A stretch of 64,000 nucleotides of DNA from Methanothermococcus okinawensis IH1 (GTDB taxonomy: Archaea > AGJL01 > Methanococci > Methanococcales > Methanococcaceae): assembly GCF_000179575.2 (NCBI RefSeq), contig NC_015636.1, positions 186,001-250,000 on the forward strand, in the 5' to 3' direction. The position numbers and the translations under genes are program-made. Position 1 is the first letter of the stretch, and each line of letters starts with the position of its first letter. The notes below the pieces were generated by a model. That model made no database searches, was not told the DNA's origin, and was given only the letters and a program-made list of their open reading frames with translations. This document shows, piece by piece, positions 20,578-46,608 of the stretch.

Positions 20578-21146
20578 GTTAAAATCAGACCATTGATGGA
20601 TGGAAAAAAATGACAAAACATAGCACATTAGATATGCTGCTAAATGTTAAAATCAGACCATTGATGGATGGAAAAACAGATTGGGAATGATAACATTATC
20701 TACAATATAATCAGTTAAAATCAGACCATTGATGGATGGAAAACTCGAAATTAAGCTTTCGGAAGGAGAAACATTTAAATTGTTAAAATCAGACCATTGA
20801 TGGATGGAAAATACATAATACACCCTTCGATAGGATTCTTCATTATCTTGTTAAAATCAGACCATTGATGGATGGAAAATAGTCTCACCTTAACCTAATC
20901 CTATATCTACATATTTAGTTAAAATCAGACCATTGATGGATGGAAAATGCGTAGGATACCCCATTTCCAGCAACTTTTCTTTTGTTAAAATCAGACCATT
21001 GATGGATGGAAAATGTATTTTTAGTTTCGAAAGGAACTGATTATGATTGGGTTAAAATCAGACCATTGATGGATGGAAATTCTCTTTTTGAATTTCTTAT
21101 ATTAATCTATAAAAGAGTTAAAATCAGACCATTGATGGATGGAAAT
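20578..21146 (+). CRISPR. Small CRISPR array, 9 repeats and 8 spacers
   Basis: The 30-base repeat starts GTTAAAATCAGACC and ends GATGGATGGAAA plus one variable base. Repeat starts are 20578, 20646, 20714, 20782, 20850, 20918, 20984, 21051 and 21117, so spacers are 36-38 bases. The first seven repeats end in A and the last two end in T, the form seen in all repeats of the large array. The leader is at the left. No cas gene lies near it. Spacer 2 shares 17 bases with a spacer of the large array. Confidence 0.98.
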
Positions 21147-34811: not shown

Positions 34812-35780
34812 ATGGCTGATAATTTAACGGATTTACCAGGAGTAGGACCTTCAACCGCTGAAAAACTTATTGAAGCAGGATATATCGATTTTATGAAAAT
34901 TGCCACTGCCACCATAGGTGAACTCACAGATATTGAAGGAATTAGCGAGAAAGCTGCGGCTAAAATGATAATGGGTGCCAGAGAACTATGTGATTTAGGA
35001 TTTAAAAGTGGTGCAGACCTTTTGAATCAAAGAAAAACAGTATGGAGATTATCCACTGGTAGCGATGAATTAAATAGGATATTAAATGGAGGATTGGAAA
35101 GTCAATCCATAACAGAATTTGCAGGAGTATTTGGAAGTGGAAAAACGCAAATTGCCCATCAGGCATGTGTTAATCTCCAATGTGAAGATACAATTTTTGT
35201 AGATAATGAATGGGTAAGTGATGAGGAATTGGCAAATCCAAAGGCTGTTTATATAGATACTGAGGGAACATTTAGACCTGAAAGAATTACTCAAATGGCA
35301 GAAGCTCTTGGTATAGATGGTCAGAAGGTGCTTGATAACACATTTGTAGCCAGAGCCTACAATTCAGATATGCAGATGCTTTTTGCAGAAAAAATAGAGG
35401 AACTCATAAAATCAGGGAATAACATAAAGTTAGTAATTGTGGATTCTCTAACAAGCACATTTAGAAATGAATATACAGGGAGAGGAAAACTCGCAGAAAG
35501 ACAGCAAAAACTTGGAAGGCACATGGCAGTTTTAAATAAACTTGCAGACCTCCACAACTGTATTGTTGTTATTACAAACCAAGTTTCGGCAAGACCTGAT
35601 GCATTCTTTGGTGTTGCTGAACAGGCAATTGGGGGGCATATCGTTGGACATGCTGCAACATTTAGATTCTTTTTAAGAAAAGGAAAAGGAGATAAAAGAG
35701 TTGCAAAATTATACGACTCTCCACATCTTCCAGATGCCGAGGCAATATTTAGAATAACAGAAAAAGGAATTCATGATTAA
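34812..35780 (+). CDS. radA: DNA repair and recombination protein RadA
   Basis: The archaeal RecA/Rad51 recombinase has 322 residues. It has an N-terminal helix-hairpin-helix domain ([16 protein letters not shown]), Walker [10 protein letters not shown] at residues 105-113, and the L2 region [12 protein letters not shown]. There is no intein. GTGAATAT precedes the ATG. No GAGCTC palindrome lies within it. A second RecA-like gene, radB, is at 45.9-46.5 kb. Confidence 0.97.
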
Positions 35781-38203: not shown

Positions 38204-38643
38204 TATTGTATAAAAATATTAAGTTATTTTAATAATCATTTTTATTTCTTTTATCAATAACCTATTATTATCCCTACAAATATTCCTTATTTTTTTATTA
38301 TATTGCTTATATAATTTTTATTTTTTAAAATCTCTTTAAATAATCTGTCGTAAATCGATGGATTTTTTAGTATAATTAATATATTTATATAAATAAAATT
38401 ATAGAGATTTTTTAAGAGATTTCTTATATATTATATTATTTTTATCTGTTCCTTGTAAATTTTTTATATTTTAAAAAAATATCAATTTAATATCTTTTAT
38501 ATTCCTAAATACCTTTAAATTATCCGTCGTAAATCACCCTTAAAACTATATAAATAACAAAAATCAATGTGATTCGAGATTCGAAAAGTTTATATAGGGG
38601 TAATGCAAAGGTATTTTACATAAAATAAGAAAATTTTTGAACT
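38204..38643 (+). promoter_or_regulatory. CRISPR leader of the large array
   Basis: This gene-free AT-rich stretch matches the leader at 20148-20577 along its length. It has the two CYGTCGTAAATC motifs near 38345 and 38523, an ACTATATAAAT element near 38545, and a good BRE/TATA sequence GAAAAGTTTATATA at 38583-38596. The latter predicts a transcript start close to 38620, just before the first repeat. The last 33 bases also occur at 39477-39509 within the array. Confidence 0.9.
38583..38596 (+). promoter_or_regulatory. Probable pre-crRNA promoter of the large array
   Basis: GAAAAGTTTATATA is a purine-rich BRE followed by a strong TATA box, about 50 bases before the first repeat. The matching site in the small-array leader is weaker (GCAAGGTTTATATC). 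Confidence 0.5.
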
Positions 38644-39476
38644 GTTAAAATCAGACCATTGATGGATGGAAATGATGAAGACGATAATGGCGTAACATAC
38701 GGGGACAGCGTTAAAATCAGACCATTGATGGATGGAAATCCATATTTTCACCTTATCTTTTTTTACAGCTCAGAGGTTAAAATCAGACCATTGATGGATG
38801 GAAATTTTTTTGGTATATAGGTAGTATAATGGTATAAAAAATGGTTAAAATCAGACCATTGATGGATGGAAATCCGTATAAAATTTGAAAAAAGTAAATA
38901 ATTATTTTTGTTAAAATCAGACCATTGATGGATGGAAATGACCTTGACAGCATTACAGACTCAATAATTGAAGAGTTAAAATCAGACCATTGATGGATGG
39001 AAATTACATTGATGACGGGATGATTTTTTAAGCTCTTATTTTCGTTAAAATCAGACCATTGATGGATGGAAATTGATTTATATTTTGGCATCTCAAAATG
39101 TAAATCAGAACAAGCTATCGCCTCCATGTTAAAATCAGACCATTGATGGATGGAAATCATTATTAGAATCAAAAATGAGGTTTAAACTCCATCAAGTTAA
39201 AATCAGACCATTGATGGATGGAAATTCTGGAACTATATTTCTATTAACCCATAGGTGGAAGGTTAAAATCAGACCATTGATGGATGGAAATTTTTTGCTT
39301 GGAATTTCATAAACTAATGGTTTTGCTCGTTAAAATCAGACCATTGATGGATGGAAATGTGGTAAGTTTATCAATGTATTTTTTAGAAGAAATGTTATGC
39401 TCGTTAAAATCAGACCATTGATGGATGGAAATTTTACCCTGATGCTTCCAGTGCGGGGAGCTCATTATTTCCTTTT

Positions 39477-39509
39477 GTATTTTACATAAAATAAGAAAAT
39501 TTTTGAACT
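39477..39509 (+). repeat. Leader fragment embedded in the large array
   Basis: Thirty-three bases, from GTATTTTACATAAAAT to TTTTTGAACT, are identical to 38611-38643, the end of the leader. They stand directly before repeat 13, as the true leader stands before repeat 1. A 44-base segment of ordinary spacer size precedes them. Confidence 0.95.
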
Positions 39510-42500
39510 GTTAAAATCAGACCATTGATGGATGGAAATTTTACTGCTTTTACGCTCGTTATATATCCCTGTTTAGTTGTTAAAATCAGACCATTGATGG
39601 ATGGAAATCAATATCGTGAGCACTCAGGATGTGTCACGATTGACACGTTAAAATCAGACCATTGATGGATGGAAATCCTCTTTCCTCAACTTGTAATTTA
39701 CTATCTATACTTACGTTAAAATCAGACCATTGATGGATGGAAATTGTTTAAGACATCATCTATTGTAAAAGCCTTTCCTTTTCCTGTTAAAATCAGACCA
39801 TTGATGGATGGAAATCCTGAAACTGCAAAAATGGTGGGCGTTTCCCCTCCGTTAAAATCAGACCATTGATGGATGGAAATTCTCTAAATCTTTTATGCCT
39901 TCTTTTTGCTTATATCGGGTTAAAATCAGACCATTGATGGATGGAAATTTATTTCCAATTTTAATAGTGATATCCTCAATAGATTGTTAAAATCAGACCA
40001 TTGATGGATGGAAATTCCAATCAAAGAGGTGAGGTTTATGAATATATTACGTTAAAATCAGACCATTGATGGATGGAAATATACAATGTTAATATATAAG
40101 ATGTAAATATGGAAATGTTAAAATCAGACCATTGATGGATGGAAATCCAATTATCATCTAAATTATTGTTATACTCATATTCGTTAAAATCAGACCATTG
40201 ATGGATGGAAATAAATTCATAAAATTAGGAGATGGAGATAACATATACTGTTAAAATCAGACCATTGATGGATGGAAATTAATTATAATGACATGTATCT
40301 GGTTATGGGGGCTAATCCTGTTAAAATCAGACCATTGATGGATGGAAATACCCCCAATACTTTTTTAACTTGTTTAATTACAAAGTTAAAATCAGACCAT
40401 TGATGGATGGAAATAAATATAAAGGAGAGGGACATTTCCAAGAGGAAGATAGTTAAAATCAGACCATTGATGGATGGAAATAATTAAACTGAGAATAAAT
40501 TATATGGATATACACTGTTAAAATCAGACCATTGATGGATGGAAATATTAAAGATATTGAAGAGCCAGAGCCTGCGGAAACTCGTTAAAATCAGACCATT
40601 GATGGATGGAAATATAAATAAAGGTAATGAGAATATCTATTCGTTTGAAGGTTAAAATCAGACCATTGATGGATGGAAATTCTTTTATAATTCTATATGT
40701 ACCATACCCGGTTGGGTTAAAATCAGACCATTGATGGATGGAAATATAAATGCTGAAAATAGTAAAAAAGATAGGGTATTTTTGTTAAAATCAGACCATT
40801 GATGGATGGAAATTATGATGATGAAGATGGAGGATACGACAGCATTTCAAGTTAAAATCAGACCATTGATGGATGGAAATAGGTTGTGTATTTAAATTTC
40901 TCATGTCGATATACTTCGTTAAAATCAGACCATTGATGGATGGAAATTTGTAATGGCCAGTCGATGTCACCCTTGTTGAGGGCGTTAAAATCAGACCATT
41001 GATGGATGGAAATGATAGTTAAAGAATTTAATGAAGTCTAATTTAGTTGTTAAAATCAGACCATTGATGGATGGAAATATCTTTTGTAAATATTCATTAT
41101 CTTTTTCGTAAATTTTAGTTAAAATCAGACCATTGATGGATGGAAATAAATGAAAATGAAGAAAATAATCCACAAGAAAATAATGTTAAAATCAGACCAT
41201 TGATGGATGGAAATCTATGTGGTTCATTGAAATAGGTAGCTATACCAAGGTTAAAATCAGACCATTGATGGATGGAAATGTTAAAACAATAGAATTATTT
41301 AAAGTCTCATCTAAATGTTAAAATCAGACCATTGATGGATGGAAATATTCTGCCTATAAGTCATAACAGTAGCTAAAGGACTAGTTAAAATCAGACCATT
41401 GATGGATGGAAATAAGTGAGTATTTCATACAAAAATACGGAGGAAGCAGTTAAAATCAGACCATTGATGGATGGAAATATAAAGTCTTCGTTCCAGATAA
41501 TGGAATTGATATAGCGAGTTAAAATCAGACCATTGATGGATGGAAATAAATTACTATAAAAATGGTGTTATAAACAATATTATGAGTTAAAATCAGACCA
41601 TTGATGGATGGAAATTGCTTATACTACAAAAGATTCTTACCAACTTTCCTTCGGTTAAAATCAGACCATTGATGGATGGAAATATCCATTAATGGGGTGA
41701 CTTCTTTCTCCCAGTCCCCTACGTTAAAATCAGACCATTGATGGATGGAAATATTATCTGATGAGGATAAAGAAGAAACACCAAAAGCGTTAAAATCAGA
41801 CCATTGATGGATGGAAATCTATCTCACTTTTAGTATCTGAGATATACTGATCAATAGTTAAAATCAGACCATTGATGGATGGAAATTTTTATATCTTGTT
41901 CTTCTTCTGTCATTCTTTCACCAAAGAGTTAAAATCAGACCATTGATGGATGGAAATCCACTTGCATCTGAATCTGATACAATTGTTCCATTAACGTTAA
42001 AATCAGACCATTGATGGATGGAAATTGCAAAATGTATGTATGAATGCGAACCGCCAGAGCTCGTTAAAATCAGACCATTGATGGATGGAAATTTATTAAT
42101 ATCCAACCTCCCAATATAACCTATTGTCTGTTAAAATCAGACCATTGATGGATGGAAATCTTTTAAATTCTCAATTTCTGTTTTATGCTTAGCTGTTAAA
42201 ATCAGACCATTGATGGATGGAAATTTTGGGGCGCGCCCCTACCGAGCTAAGTATCCATTCCGTTAAAATCAGACCATTGATGGATGGAAATAAAGAGGTA
42301 TCTTTCAACTCAGGAAGTTCATTTGCAGGTTAAAATCAGACCATTGATGGATGGAAATTGTCATATATATCTATACTTATTTCATCCCCTATTATATGTT
42401 AAAATCAGACCATTGATGGATGGAAATTAATTTTTAATTTTTAATGTCATTTCTATTTTATTATTAATAGTTAAAATCAGACCATTGATGGATGGAAATT

Positions 42501-42538
42501 CAATTTTTACTTGGAAATCATTTAGGTCGTAACTGTTT

Positions 42539-42674
42539 GTTAAAATCAGACCATTGATGGATGGAAATTCTTGGAATTTCATTTATATGTTCATCTTTAA
42601 CATATTGTTAAAATCAGACCATTGATGGATGGAAATTCTTGGAATTTCATTTATATGTTCATCTTTAACATATT
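42539..42674 (+). repeat. Tandem duplicated repeat-spacer unit
   Basis: The spacers at 42569-42606 and 42637-42674 (38 bases each, starting TCTTGGAATTTCATTTAT) are identical. A whole 68-base repeat-spacer unit was duplicated. Confidence 0.95.
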
Positions 42675-45061
42675 GTTAAAATCAGACCATTGATGGATGG
42701 AAATTTGGGATTTTATAATAAATGAAATTCGGAGCAATGGCGTTAAAATCAGACCATTGATGGATGGAAATTCTAATGGTCTGATTATAAATAAAATATA
42801 AAAATTAAGTTAAAATCAGACCATTGATGGATGGAAATCTAAATTTAACATTTACTCCTTCTAAAACAATATATGTTAAAATCAGACCATTGATGGATGG
42901 AAATTCATTGATGCAGAAATCTAAAAATTCCTCTAAATCAGTTAAAATCAGACCACTGATGGATGGAAATTTCTTGAATTTAAAATATTTTATCATTATT
43001 TCACCGTTAAAATCAGACCATTGATGGATGAAAATTTGTCAAATCTTATCCCTACTTTATTACTGGATATTGGGTTAAAATCAGACCATTGATGGATGGA
43101 AATCAAGAACCTATGATGACAATGGAAATGTCGTAATTAAGTTAAAATCAGACCATTGATGGATGGAAATCACTTTTTTAATTCCGATTGTCAGGCTTCG
43201 CCTGGTTAAAATCAGACCATTGATGGATGGAAATGATTTCTATATTAGAATTCATCAGTTATATCCCCACGTTAAAATCAGACCATTGATGGATGGAAAT
43301 ATTATTTGTATATCTCCTGAGGAAATGTTTGAGTTAGATGTTAAAATCAGACCATTGATGGATGGAAATCAGTTAAGAAAGTAACTAAACAAGGAAAATA
43401 CGGGGTTAAAATCAGACCATTGATGGATGGAAATTTCAATGATGCTACAAATAGTTTGTTTGTAGTTAAGGTTAAAATCAGACCATTGATGGATGGAAAT
43501 CAAAAAAACATACAACAAGCGTATCGACAATAACTGTTAAAATCAGACCATTGATGGATGGAAATTCCTTTATTTAATCAATAAGGTATTTTACATTGAG
43601 TTGTTAAAATCAGACCATTGATGGATGGAAATTTTTTTATATCATAACCCTCAAAATTCCAGTAATCCTGTTAAAATCAGACCATTGATGGATGGAAATT
43701 TTTGTAAGGGTTATTGATTTTGAATTTGTTACATAAGTTAAAATCAGACCATTGATGGATGGAAATGCATTTTTATCACCCTTTTATTTTATTTTTTTTA
43801 TTGTTAAAATCAGACCATTGATGGATGGAAATTATCTATTTATTAACTCCGTTGGGTTTTGAATAACTGTTAAAATCAGACCATTGATGGATGGAAATTC
43901 AATAATATTTCTTGTTGGAATATTGACTTCCTTGTTAAAATCAGACCATTGATGGATGGAAATCAATGATTTAATCCTTTCCGTATGGTTCTTCCCCTCC
44001 ACGTTAAAATCAGACCATTGATGGATGGAAATTACTTGGAGGAACTATTCCCGCAAGTGCTAATGATGGTTAAAATCAGACCATTGATGGATGGAAATTC
44101 GATACGAGATTAAATTTAGCAACACCACCATCATAGTTAAAATCAGACCATTGATGGATGGAAATTGATAATTATTATATCTATATATTTGTATGGGATT
44201 GCGTTAAAATCAGACCATTGATGGATGGAAATTAGTATAAATACCTGCGGCTACACCAGCCCCTACTTGTTAAAATCAGACCATTGATGGATGGAAATCA
44301 TTTGTTTTAATAAAATAAAAATAAAATATTATGTGTTAAAATCAGACCATTGATGGATGGAAATGTGAGATTAAAAACTTCAAGAGCCCTGAGGTATCTA
44401 ACGTTAAAATCAGACCATTGATGGATGGAAATAATTCTGAAAGGTTAGGAATGATAACATTATCAATAGTTAAAATCAGACCATTGATGGATGGAAATTT
44501 TTGTGCTGGCGTGATACCATAATGTGATTTAAGAAGTTAAAATCAGACCATTGATGGATGGAAATTAGTTCAAGTTCAAAAACATACAATCCAAATACAA
44601 CGTTAAAATCAGACCATTGATGGATGGAAATATAAATTTATTGGAATAAAAATTTTCTGAGTCATTTTGTTAAAATCAGACCATTGATGGATGGAAATTA
44701 ATTTACAATACCAGAGTTTATCATATTTACATTATCGTTAAAATCAGACCATTGATGGATGGAAATCCAATAACACATATAAAAAAAGCAATATATAAAA
44801 TAAGTTAAAATCAGACCATTGATGGATGGAAATTTATATACTATGAGCGATAAGTATAATTTAGAAGTGTTAAAATCAGACCATTGATGGATGGAAATGC
44901 TGTATTTAATATATATTGGGTTGTTAAAAACGATAAAAAACAGGTAATTTTTTATTTCATTTATTATTTCTTAAAATTCATTGATAATAGTCTCTTTTAT
45001 AGCTATATTTATTTTGATTAACCATAAAATAATAAATATGTTAATCATAAAAAATATATAT

Positions 45062-45860: not shown

Positions 45861-46499
45861 TTATGGTATTATATCAATACCTTTTTTTACTATTTTATAT
45901 TTAATTCGTTCTCCTTCTTCCGAATATCTGTGTTTTTCTAATATTAACTCCCTTAATTTATTTAGCTTTTCCATTCTAATTATGGTTTTGCTCCAATATT
46001 CAAGTATCTTTCCACCAGTTGCTTTAAATCCATTTGAGGTATCGCTAACTTGATTTGTAATTAAAACTGCTAAGTTCTTTTTTTTGGCAGTATTTAATAG
46101 GGTAAGTATTTGCCTGCCAAGTATTCTGTTTAATCGGGTATTTTCATCCACCTTGTCTGAGAGCTCTAACCTATATAATGACGATATGCCATCAACGATA
46201 ACTAAACCCAAATTATCAATGTATAATAATTTTTCAAGGAGTATTGATTGCTCTTCAAAGCTTTCGGGTTCGTAAATAATCAAATTATTGAGTATATTTT
46301 CAATTTCATCCCCTGCTATTTGCTTTATTCTTTCAATAGATAATCCGCCCTCGGTATCTACATATACTACTTTAAAACCTTTTCTTATAAAATTTATTGC
46401 AGAAATTATACCAATATTGGTTTTCCCAACTCCTGGTGGTCCATAAATCTGAGTAATTGTTTTTCTTTCGATATTTCCCTTTAAAATTTCCTTTAACAT
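45861..46499 (-). CDS. radB: DNA repair and recombination protein RadB
   Basis: The RadA paralogue has 212 residues from ATG 46499, preceded by AAGGGATATATT. Walker A YGPPGVGKTN is at residues 19-28, Walker B is LGLVIVDGISSL, and VLITNQVSD follows. It lacks the helix-hairpin-helix domain, which is typical for RadB, an accessory factor in recombination. It is next to tiaS on the same strand. Confidence 0.92.
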   Translation of the reverse strand: MLKEILKGNIERKTITQIYGPPGVGKTNIGIISAINFIRKGFKVVYVDTEGGLSIERIKQIAGDEIENILNNLIIYEPESFEEQSILLEKLLYIDNLGLVIVDGISSLYRLELSDKVDENTRLNRILGRQILTLLNTAKKKNLAVLITNQVSDTSNGFKATGGKILEYWSKTIIRMEKLNKLRELILEKHRYSEEGERIKYKIVKKGIDIIP

Positions 46500-46608
46500 A
46501 ATATATCCCTTAATAAATAACATAATTAATATAATAATAAAATTAATATAAATAATATATAATATTATAATATACTATAAGCTACATCTTAAAATAAAAT
46601 AATATAAC

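Follow-up and report, generated by a model that had tools for sequence, protein, structure and literature searches.

An internal copy of the leader end in a CRISPR array of Methanothermococcus okinawensis: a probable scar of one aberrant spacer integration

How does the end of a CRISPR leader come to lie inside the array that it heads? The question is raised by the array that begins at position 38644 of the window, the 64,000-nucleotide stretch of the Methanothermococcus okinawensis IH1 genome analyzed here (NC_015636.1, positions 186,001 to 250,000, forward strand). A first-pass annotation had counted 93 repeats in this array and had described the end of the leader as recurring exactly before repeat 13, behind a 44-base segment of normal spacer size. 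The count is correct, the two copies of the leader end (38611-38643 and 39477-39509) agree at 33/33 nt, and the segment, here called S44, occupies 39433-39476. Recombination between two loci sharing the leader and an erroneous integration event had been offered as origins, and the second is the better supported of the two. The internal leader end is probably what remains of a single event in which Cas1-Cas2 integrated S44 aberrantly, and not the product of a fusion of two arrays.

Anatomy of the array and its duplicated segment

The features on which the argument depends are as follows.

38260..38643, + strand: CRISPR leader, conserved in 6/6 arrays of the genome in an alignment of the six leaders
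38611..38643, + strand: original copy of L33, the final 33 nt of the leader (exact sequence match)
38644..38673, + strand: repeat 1, at the current leader-repeat junction
38644..39432, + strand: newer block, repeats 1-12 and spacers 1-11, whose addition after the aberrant event is suggested by leader polarity
39403..39432, + strand: repeat 12 (R12), the repeat part of the left 63-bp duplicate, whose L33 part is today's leader end
39433..39476, + strand: S44, the inserted spacer, 44 nt of unique sequence
39477..39509, + strand: internal L33, a copy of the leader end (exact sequence match)
39510..39539, + strand: repeat 13 (R13), the repeat part of the right 63-bp duplicate and presumably once the first repeat
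39510..44898, + strand: older part of the array, repeats 13-93

The anatomy can be read directly from the sequence. L33 (GTATTTTACATAAAATAAGAAAATTTTTGAACT) is identical over 33 nt at both positions, and both copies continue directly into a perfect 30-nt repeat, giving an exact duplicate of 63 nt. Identity ends sharply at the 33-nt boundary, beyond which the end of S44 (...ATTTCCTTTT) and the leader (...TAATGCAAAG) cannot be aligned. The order at the scar is R12, S44, internal L33 and R13, and removal of 107 bp (the 44 nt of S44 plus 63) yields a canonical leader-repeat-spacer-13 array. The left duplicate leaves a perfect leader-repeat junction. Because the longest leader match in the other spacers of the six arrays is 14 nt, and at most 4 nt of the leader end occur at a spacer terminus, chance cannot account for an exact 33-nt match that lies in register with the border of the repeat. 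One spacer of the 93-repeat array matches leader positions -36 to -23 over 14 nt (AAGGTATTTTACAT, at 43583-43596), possibly by chance. The array is flanked by two archaeal recombinase genes, radA (34812-35780) about 3 kb upstream and radB (45861-46523) about 1 kb downstream.

The length of S44 is that of a whole spacer. Other spacers measure 32-45 nt, except two (52 and 54 nt), and five spacers of 44 or 45 nt occur elsewhere in the six arrays. Such a length is rarely expected from a random break inside a spacer: based on the spacer lengths of the six arrays, the probability that such a break leaves at least 44 nt is 0.003, and the likelihood of a length of 44 nt is ~0.016 for a complete spacer versus ~0.0008 for a random break, a ratio of ~20. 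Spacers of at least 43 nt cluster near leaders, with 7/9 at positions 1-12 (permutation p 0.001), although this threshold was picked after inspection of the data, p is 0.04 at 42 nt, and overall length shows no trend; the pattern may hint at sloppier recent acquisition. The first-pass annotation had suggested looking for S44 elsewhere in the genome, and neither that search nor its extension to 35 other genomes of the order found a copy at up to three mismatches. No protospacer of S44 with a PAM was matched in phages, viral contigs or the 36 genomes of the order; one degenerate viral match was rejected as chance, as it covers 18/44 nt only.

The genome, made up of a 1.66-Mb chromosome and a 14.9-kb second contig, has six arrays with a common repeat and a common leader of about 370 nt. 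Two of the arrays lie in the window (20578 and 38644) and four outside it. The smaller window array (20578-21146) is headed by the same leader and has 9 repeats, of which the first seven have a terminal A and the last two a terminal T. In the array at C2:1629k, the first repeat is 31 nt long (an extra A), and 752 nt of coding-like sequence lie between the last repeats. The sole cas1 found adjoins the array at C2:105k, together with cas2, cas4 and cas6 and alongside cas3d, csc1, csc2 and cas10d, which form a type I-D effector operon according to PADLOC models; the best models of Cas1, Cas2, Cas4 and Cas6 are mostly of the I-B type. Since this cas1 encodes the only integrase found, one adaptation module probably serves all six arrays.

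Origin of the internal leader end

In spacer integration, the prespacer ends are joined to both borders of the first repeat, on opposite strands, and repair duplicates the interval between them. The scar fits this scheme with one change. S44 would have been integrated by Cas1-Cas2 while repeat 13 was the first repeat, with the spacer-side attack at the normal repeat end and the leader-side attack displaced upstream, 33 bp into the leader. Repair of the gaps would then have copied the interval between the attack sites, L33 plus the repeat, or 63 bp instead of 30, and the predicted product, leader-L33-R12-S44-L33-R13, matches the observed order. The left copy would have restored a complete leader-repeat junction, and since this junction is perfect, eleven later spacers (1-11) could have been added normally. 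Like the product of an ordinary integration, the locus has a spacer-sized insert (S44) flanked by direct copies of the target, 63 nt long and exact; the left L33 part and its repeat part (R12) are now separated by the later normal acquisitions. The event is called aberrant because the duplicated segment is 63 nt rather than the 30 nt of one repeat. We infer that both cuts were the work of Cas1-Cas2 and that the repeat start or the leader end, not the first cut, determined where the spacer-side cut fell.

Several observations count against this model. At 63 bp, the stagger would be roughly double the normal one, and 33 bp of DNA would have to be bent or looped. Additionally, the -33 site ranks about 100 of roughly 390 leader positions for junction likeness and shares only GT at +1/+2, leaving a junction-like sequence at -33 unsupported as the cause of the displacement. 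Neither a strain in the ancestral state nor, as noted above, a protospacer of S44 was found. The case is also a single one: about 980 repeat instances, and the matches to a long-spacer pattern in 36 genomes, yielded no further internal leader end.

Several simpler routes fail on the order of elements at the scar. A tandem duplication of L33 and repeat followed by normal insertion predicts R-S44-R-L33-R, and no repeat lies between S44 and L33. Nor can L33 be a 33-nt spacer of self origin, since no repeat lies to its left. Had the integration started at -33 and a 30-nt ruler run from the first cut, S44 would follow leader sequence and not repeat 12.

Recombination between arrays is addressed by the S44-L33 junction and by the census of repeats. 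Homologous recombination of leader-sharing arrays is rejected because its junction would be expected inside shared leader or repeat sequence. The S44-L33 junction lies outside such sequence, and in alignment none of the six leaders matches the sequence that precedes the internal L33, so this origin from the first-pass annotation does not hold. Nor is there a remnant array: a genome search located 255 copies of the repeat (9 + 93 + 25 + 31 + 29 + 68), and because all of these fall in the six leader-bearing arrays, no leaderless remnant or orphan of a second array exists. The companion proposal, that repeats 13-93 are an older array, is retained in part. They are probably older than repeats 1-12, given normal leader polarity, but a separate array is not required.

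A non-homologous fusion would join an array broken off in spacer 12 to a second array broken 33 bp before its first repeat. The partner could be a different locus, or a copy of the chromosome that still had the ancestral state. A donor exists, as the six arrays share the leader and one other array, at C2:1529k, contains an identical L33. The arrays of this genome do rearrange, with tandemly repeated blocks of two or three spacers at C2:1529k (spacers 6-11) and C2:1629k (spacers 29-34). Nevertheless, a fusion is unlikely. It requires two breaks and end joining, one of the breaks must fall at the end of an unusually long spacer (the probability of 0.003 given above), the remnant array it should leave is missing, and spacers 1-12 and 13-93 have no block in common with another array. 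Single spacers are shared between arrays; spacer 54 of the 93-repeat array, for example, equals spacer 17 of C2:1629k.

The same product could also arise, with no wide stagger, from a slip during repair. S44 would integrate normally, and the strand filling the right-hand gap would switch to the leader-adjacent repeat, run 33 nt into the leader and then join S44. Partial duplications of the repeat give this route some precedent: the C2:1304k array has a second copy of the first 14 repeat nt at the spacer-repeat border of spacer 5, and a similar duplication of ~12 nt occurs in another genome of the order (G032:C136:1085-1158). Both begin exactly at the first base of the repeat. These duplications are accounted for by simple tandem duplication and leave the leader uninvolved, and a template switch with capture of a 33-nt loop takes more steps than one misplaced cut, making a repair slip distinctly improbable.

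An assembly or sequencing artefact is very improbable. Long repeat arrays are error-prone, and a single assembly is available, but misassembled reads should be joined inside the 30-nt repeat or inside the 63-nt duplicate. At the S44-L33 junction the left side is unique sequence and the junction lies off the repeat, so that chimeric reads would presumably be needed to create it. An aberrant integration of S44 remains the preferred origin.

A natural ruler experiment in related genomes

Two relatives, G007 and G008, offer a natural experiment on the ruler that places the spacer-side cut, and with it the birth of a new repeat type. In both, a 49-bp insertion, comprising a 46-bp palindromic element and a 3-bp ATT duplication, splits a repeat after nt 17. 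One locus (G008:C109) consists of the leader and the interrupted repeat only and is unexpanded. Its homologue (G007:C38, 1-9000, reverse strand), 96.5% identical over 1069 bp, has grown by seven units. Their repeats are 29-nt chimeras in which 17 nt from the start of the old repeat are followed by the first 12 nt of the element. One more chimeric unit is present in G007:C2 (5000-17000, reverse strand). Because units acquired after the insertion carry 29-nt repeats, these loci support a spacer-side cut held at about 29-30 nt from the leader border, independent of the sequence beyond nt 17.

The chimeras fit a ruler in the repeat start or the leader end, and taken alone they are also compatible with measurement from the first cut. 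In the proposed origin of the scar, the first cut moved and the second did not; in the chimeras, the second cut was unmoved after the repeat was split. The simplest reading of the two together, neither being proof alone, places the anchor of the ruler either within repeat nt 1-17 or at the leader end. Repeat-internal rulers have been reported for types I-B, I-E and II-A (PMC6895254), and such an anchor combined with a misplaced leader-side attack would duplicate 33 + 30 bp.

In ruler-governed systems of these types (PMC6895254, PMC6614799), the spacer-side cut is likewise made at a fixed distance from a repeat element, and changes in repeat length alter the duplicated segment. Those changes were engineered indels of a few bases in the repeat, whereas here a natural 33-bp displacement on the leader side would have added leader sequence. 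The adaptation module itself resembles that of Synechocystis type I-D (PMC10212523), in which cas1, cas2 and cas4 likewise accompany a cas10d/csc1/csc2/cas3d effector and the long leader has several conserved motifs. In contrast, the present locus is archaeal, and its Cas1, Cas2, Cas4 and Cas6 match I-B-type models well.

The embedded leader end and its possible consequences

The internal L33 includes a leader-proximal block that is conserved in the genus (AAAATAAGAAAA...). Missing from it are the distal leader motifs and the TATA-like box (TTTATATA), which lies about 50 nt before the repeat. A CTTTAAAT-ATC-GTCGTAAATC motif occurs twice in the leader, at 38332-38355 and 38513-38536 (about 180 bp apart); both copies are present in 6/6 leaders and are possible regulator sites. 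In type II-A systems, a leader-end motif inside a spacer can direct ectopic acquisition (PMC7999890), and Cas1 of S. islandicus binds from -25 to +7 (PMC9456107). Because of these precedents, the embedded leader end could in principle accept spacers. The crRNA of the scar unit would carry S44 on the 5' (seed) side and 33 nt of leader as its tail, and it may still guide; targeting of the host leader is not expected, as the seed would be mismatched there.

Ectopic or off-target spacer integration is already known, and the variant with a displaced leader-side cut is apparently new; no precedent for a natural array with a duplicated leader end was found in the open-access literature, which is weak evidence of novelty. 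In ectopic type II-A acquisition (S. thermophilus, S. pyogenes; PMC7999890), the integrase also acts off its normal site as positional signals fail or are mimicked, and a leader-like end within an array can also guide integration downstream. There, spacers enter internal repeats, whereas here the leader would have been attacked and partly duplicated.

The errors of an integrase reveal how it measures, and a rare natural slip thus bears on how the cuts are placed. Together with the chimeric repeats of the relatives, the scar points to an anchored ruler in an archaeal adaptation module associated with type I-D, which can be tested in vitro. More tentatively, the two integration cuts in these methanogens may be positioned independently, with the spacer-side cut anchored within repeat nt 1-17 or at the leader end, and a displaced leader-side cut may copy leader into arrays, where the copied end could be a second, internal point of spacer entry that disrupts the chronology of the array. 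Studies that rely on spacer age order could find it blurred where an array holds an internal leader copy.
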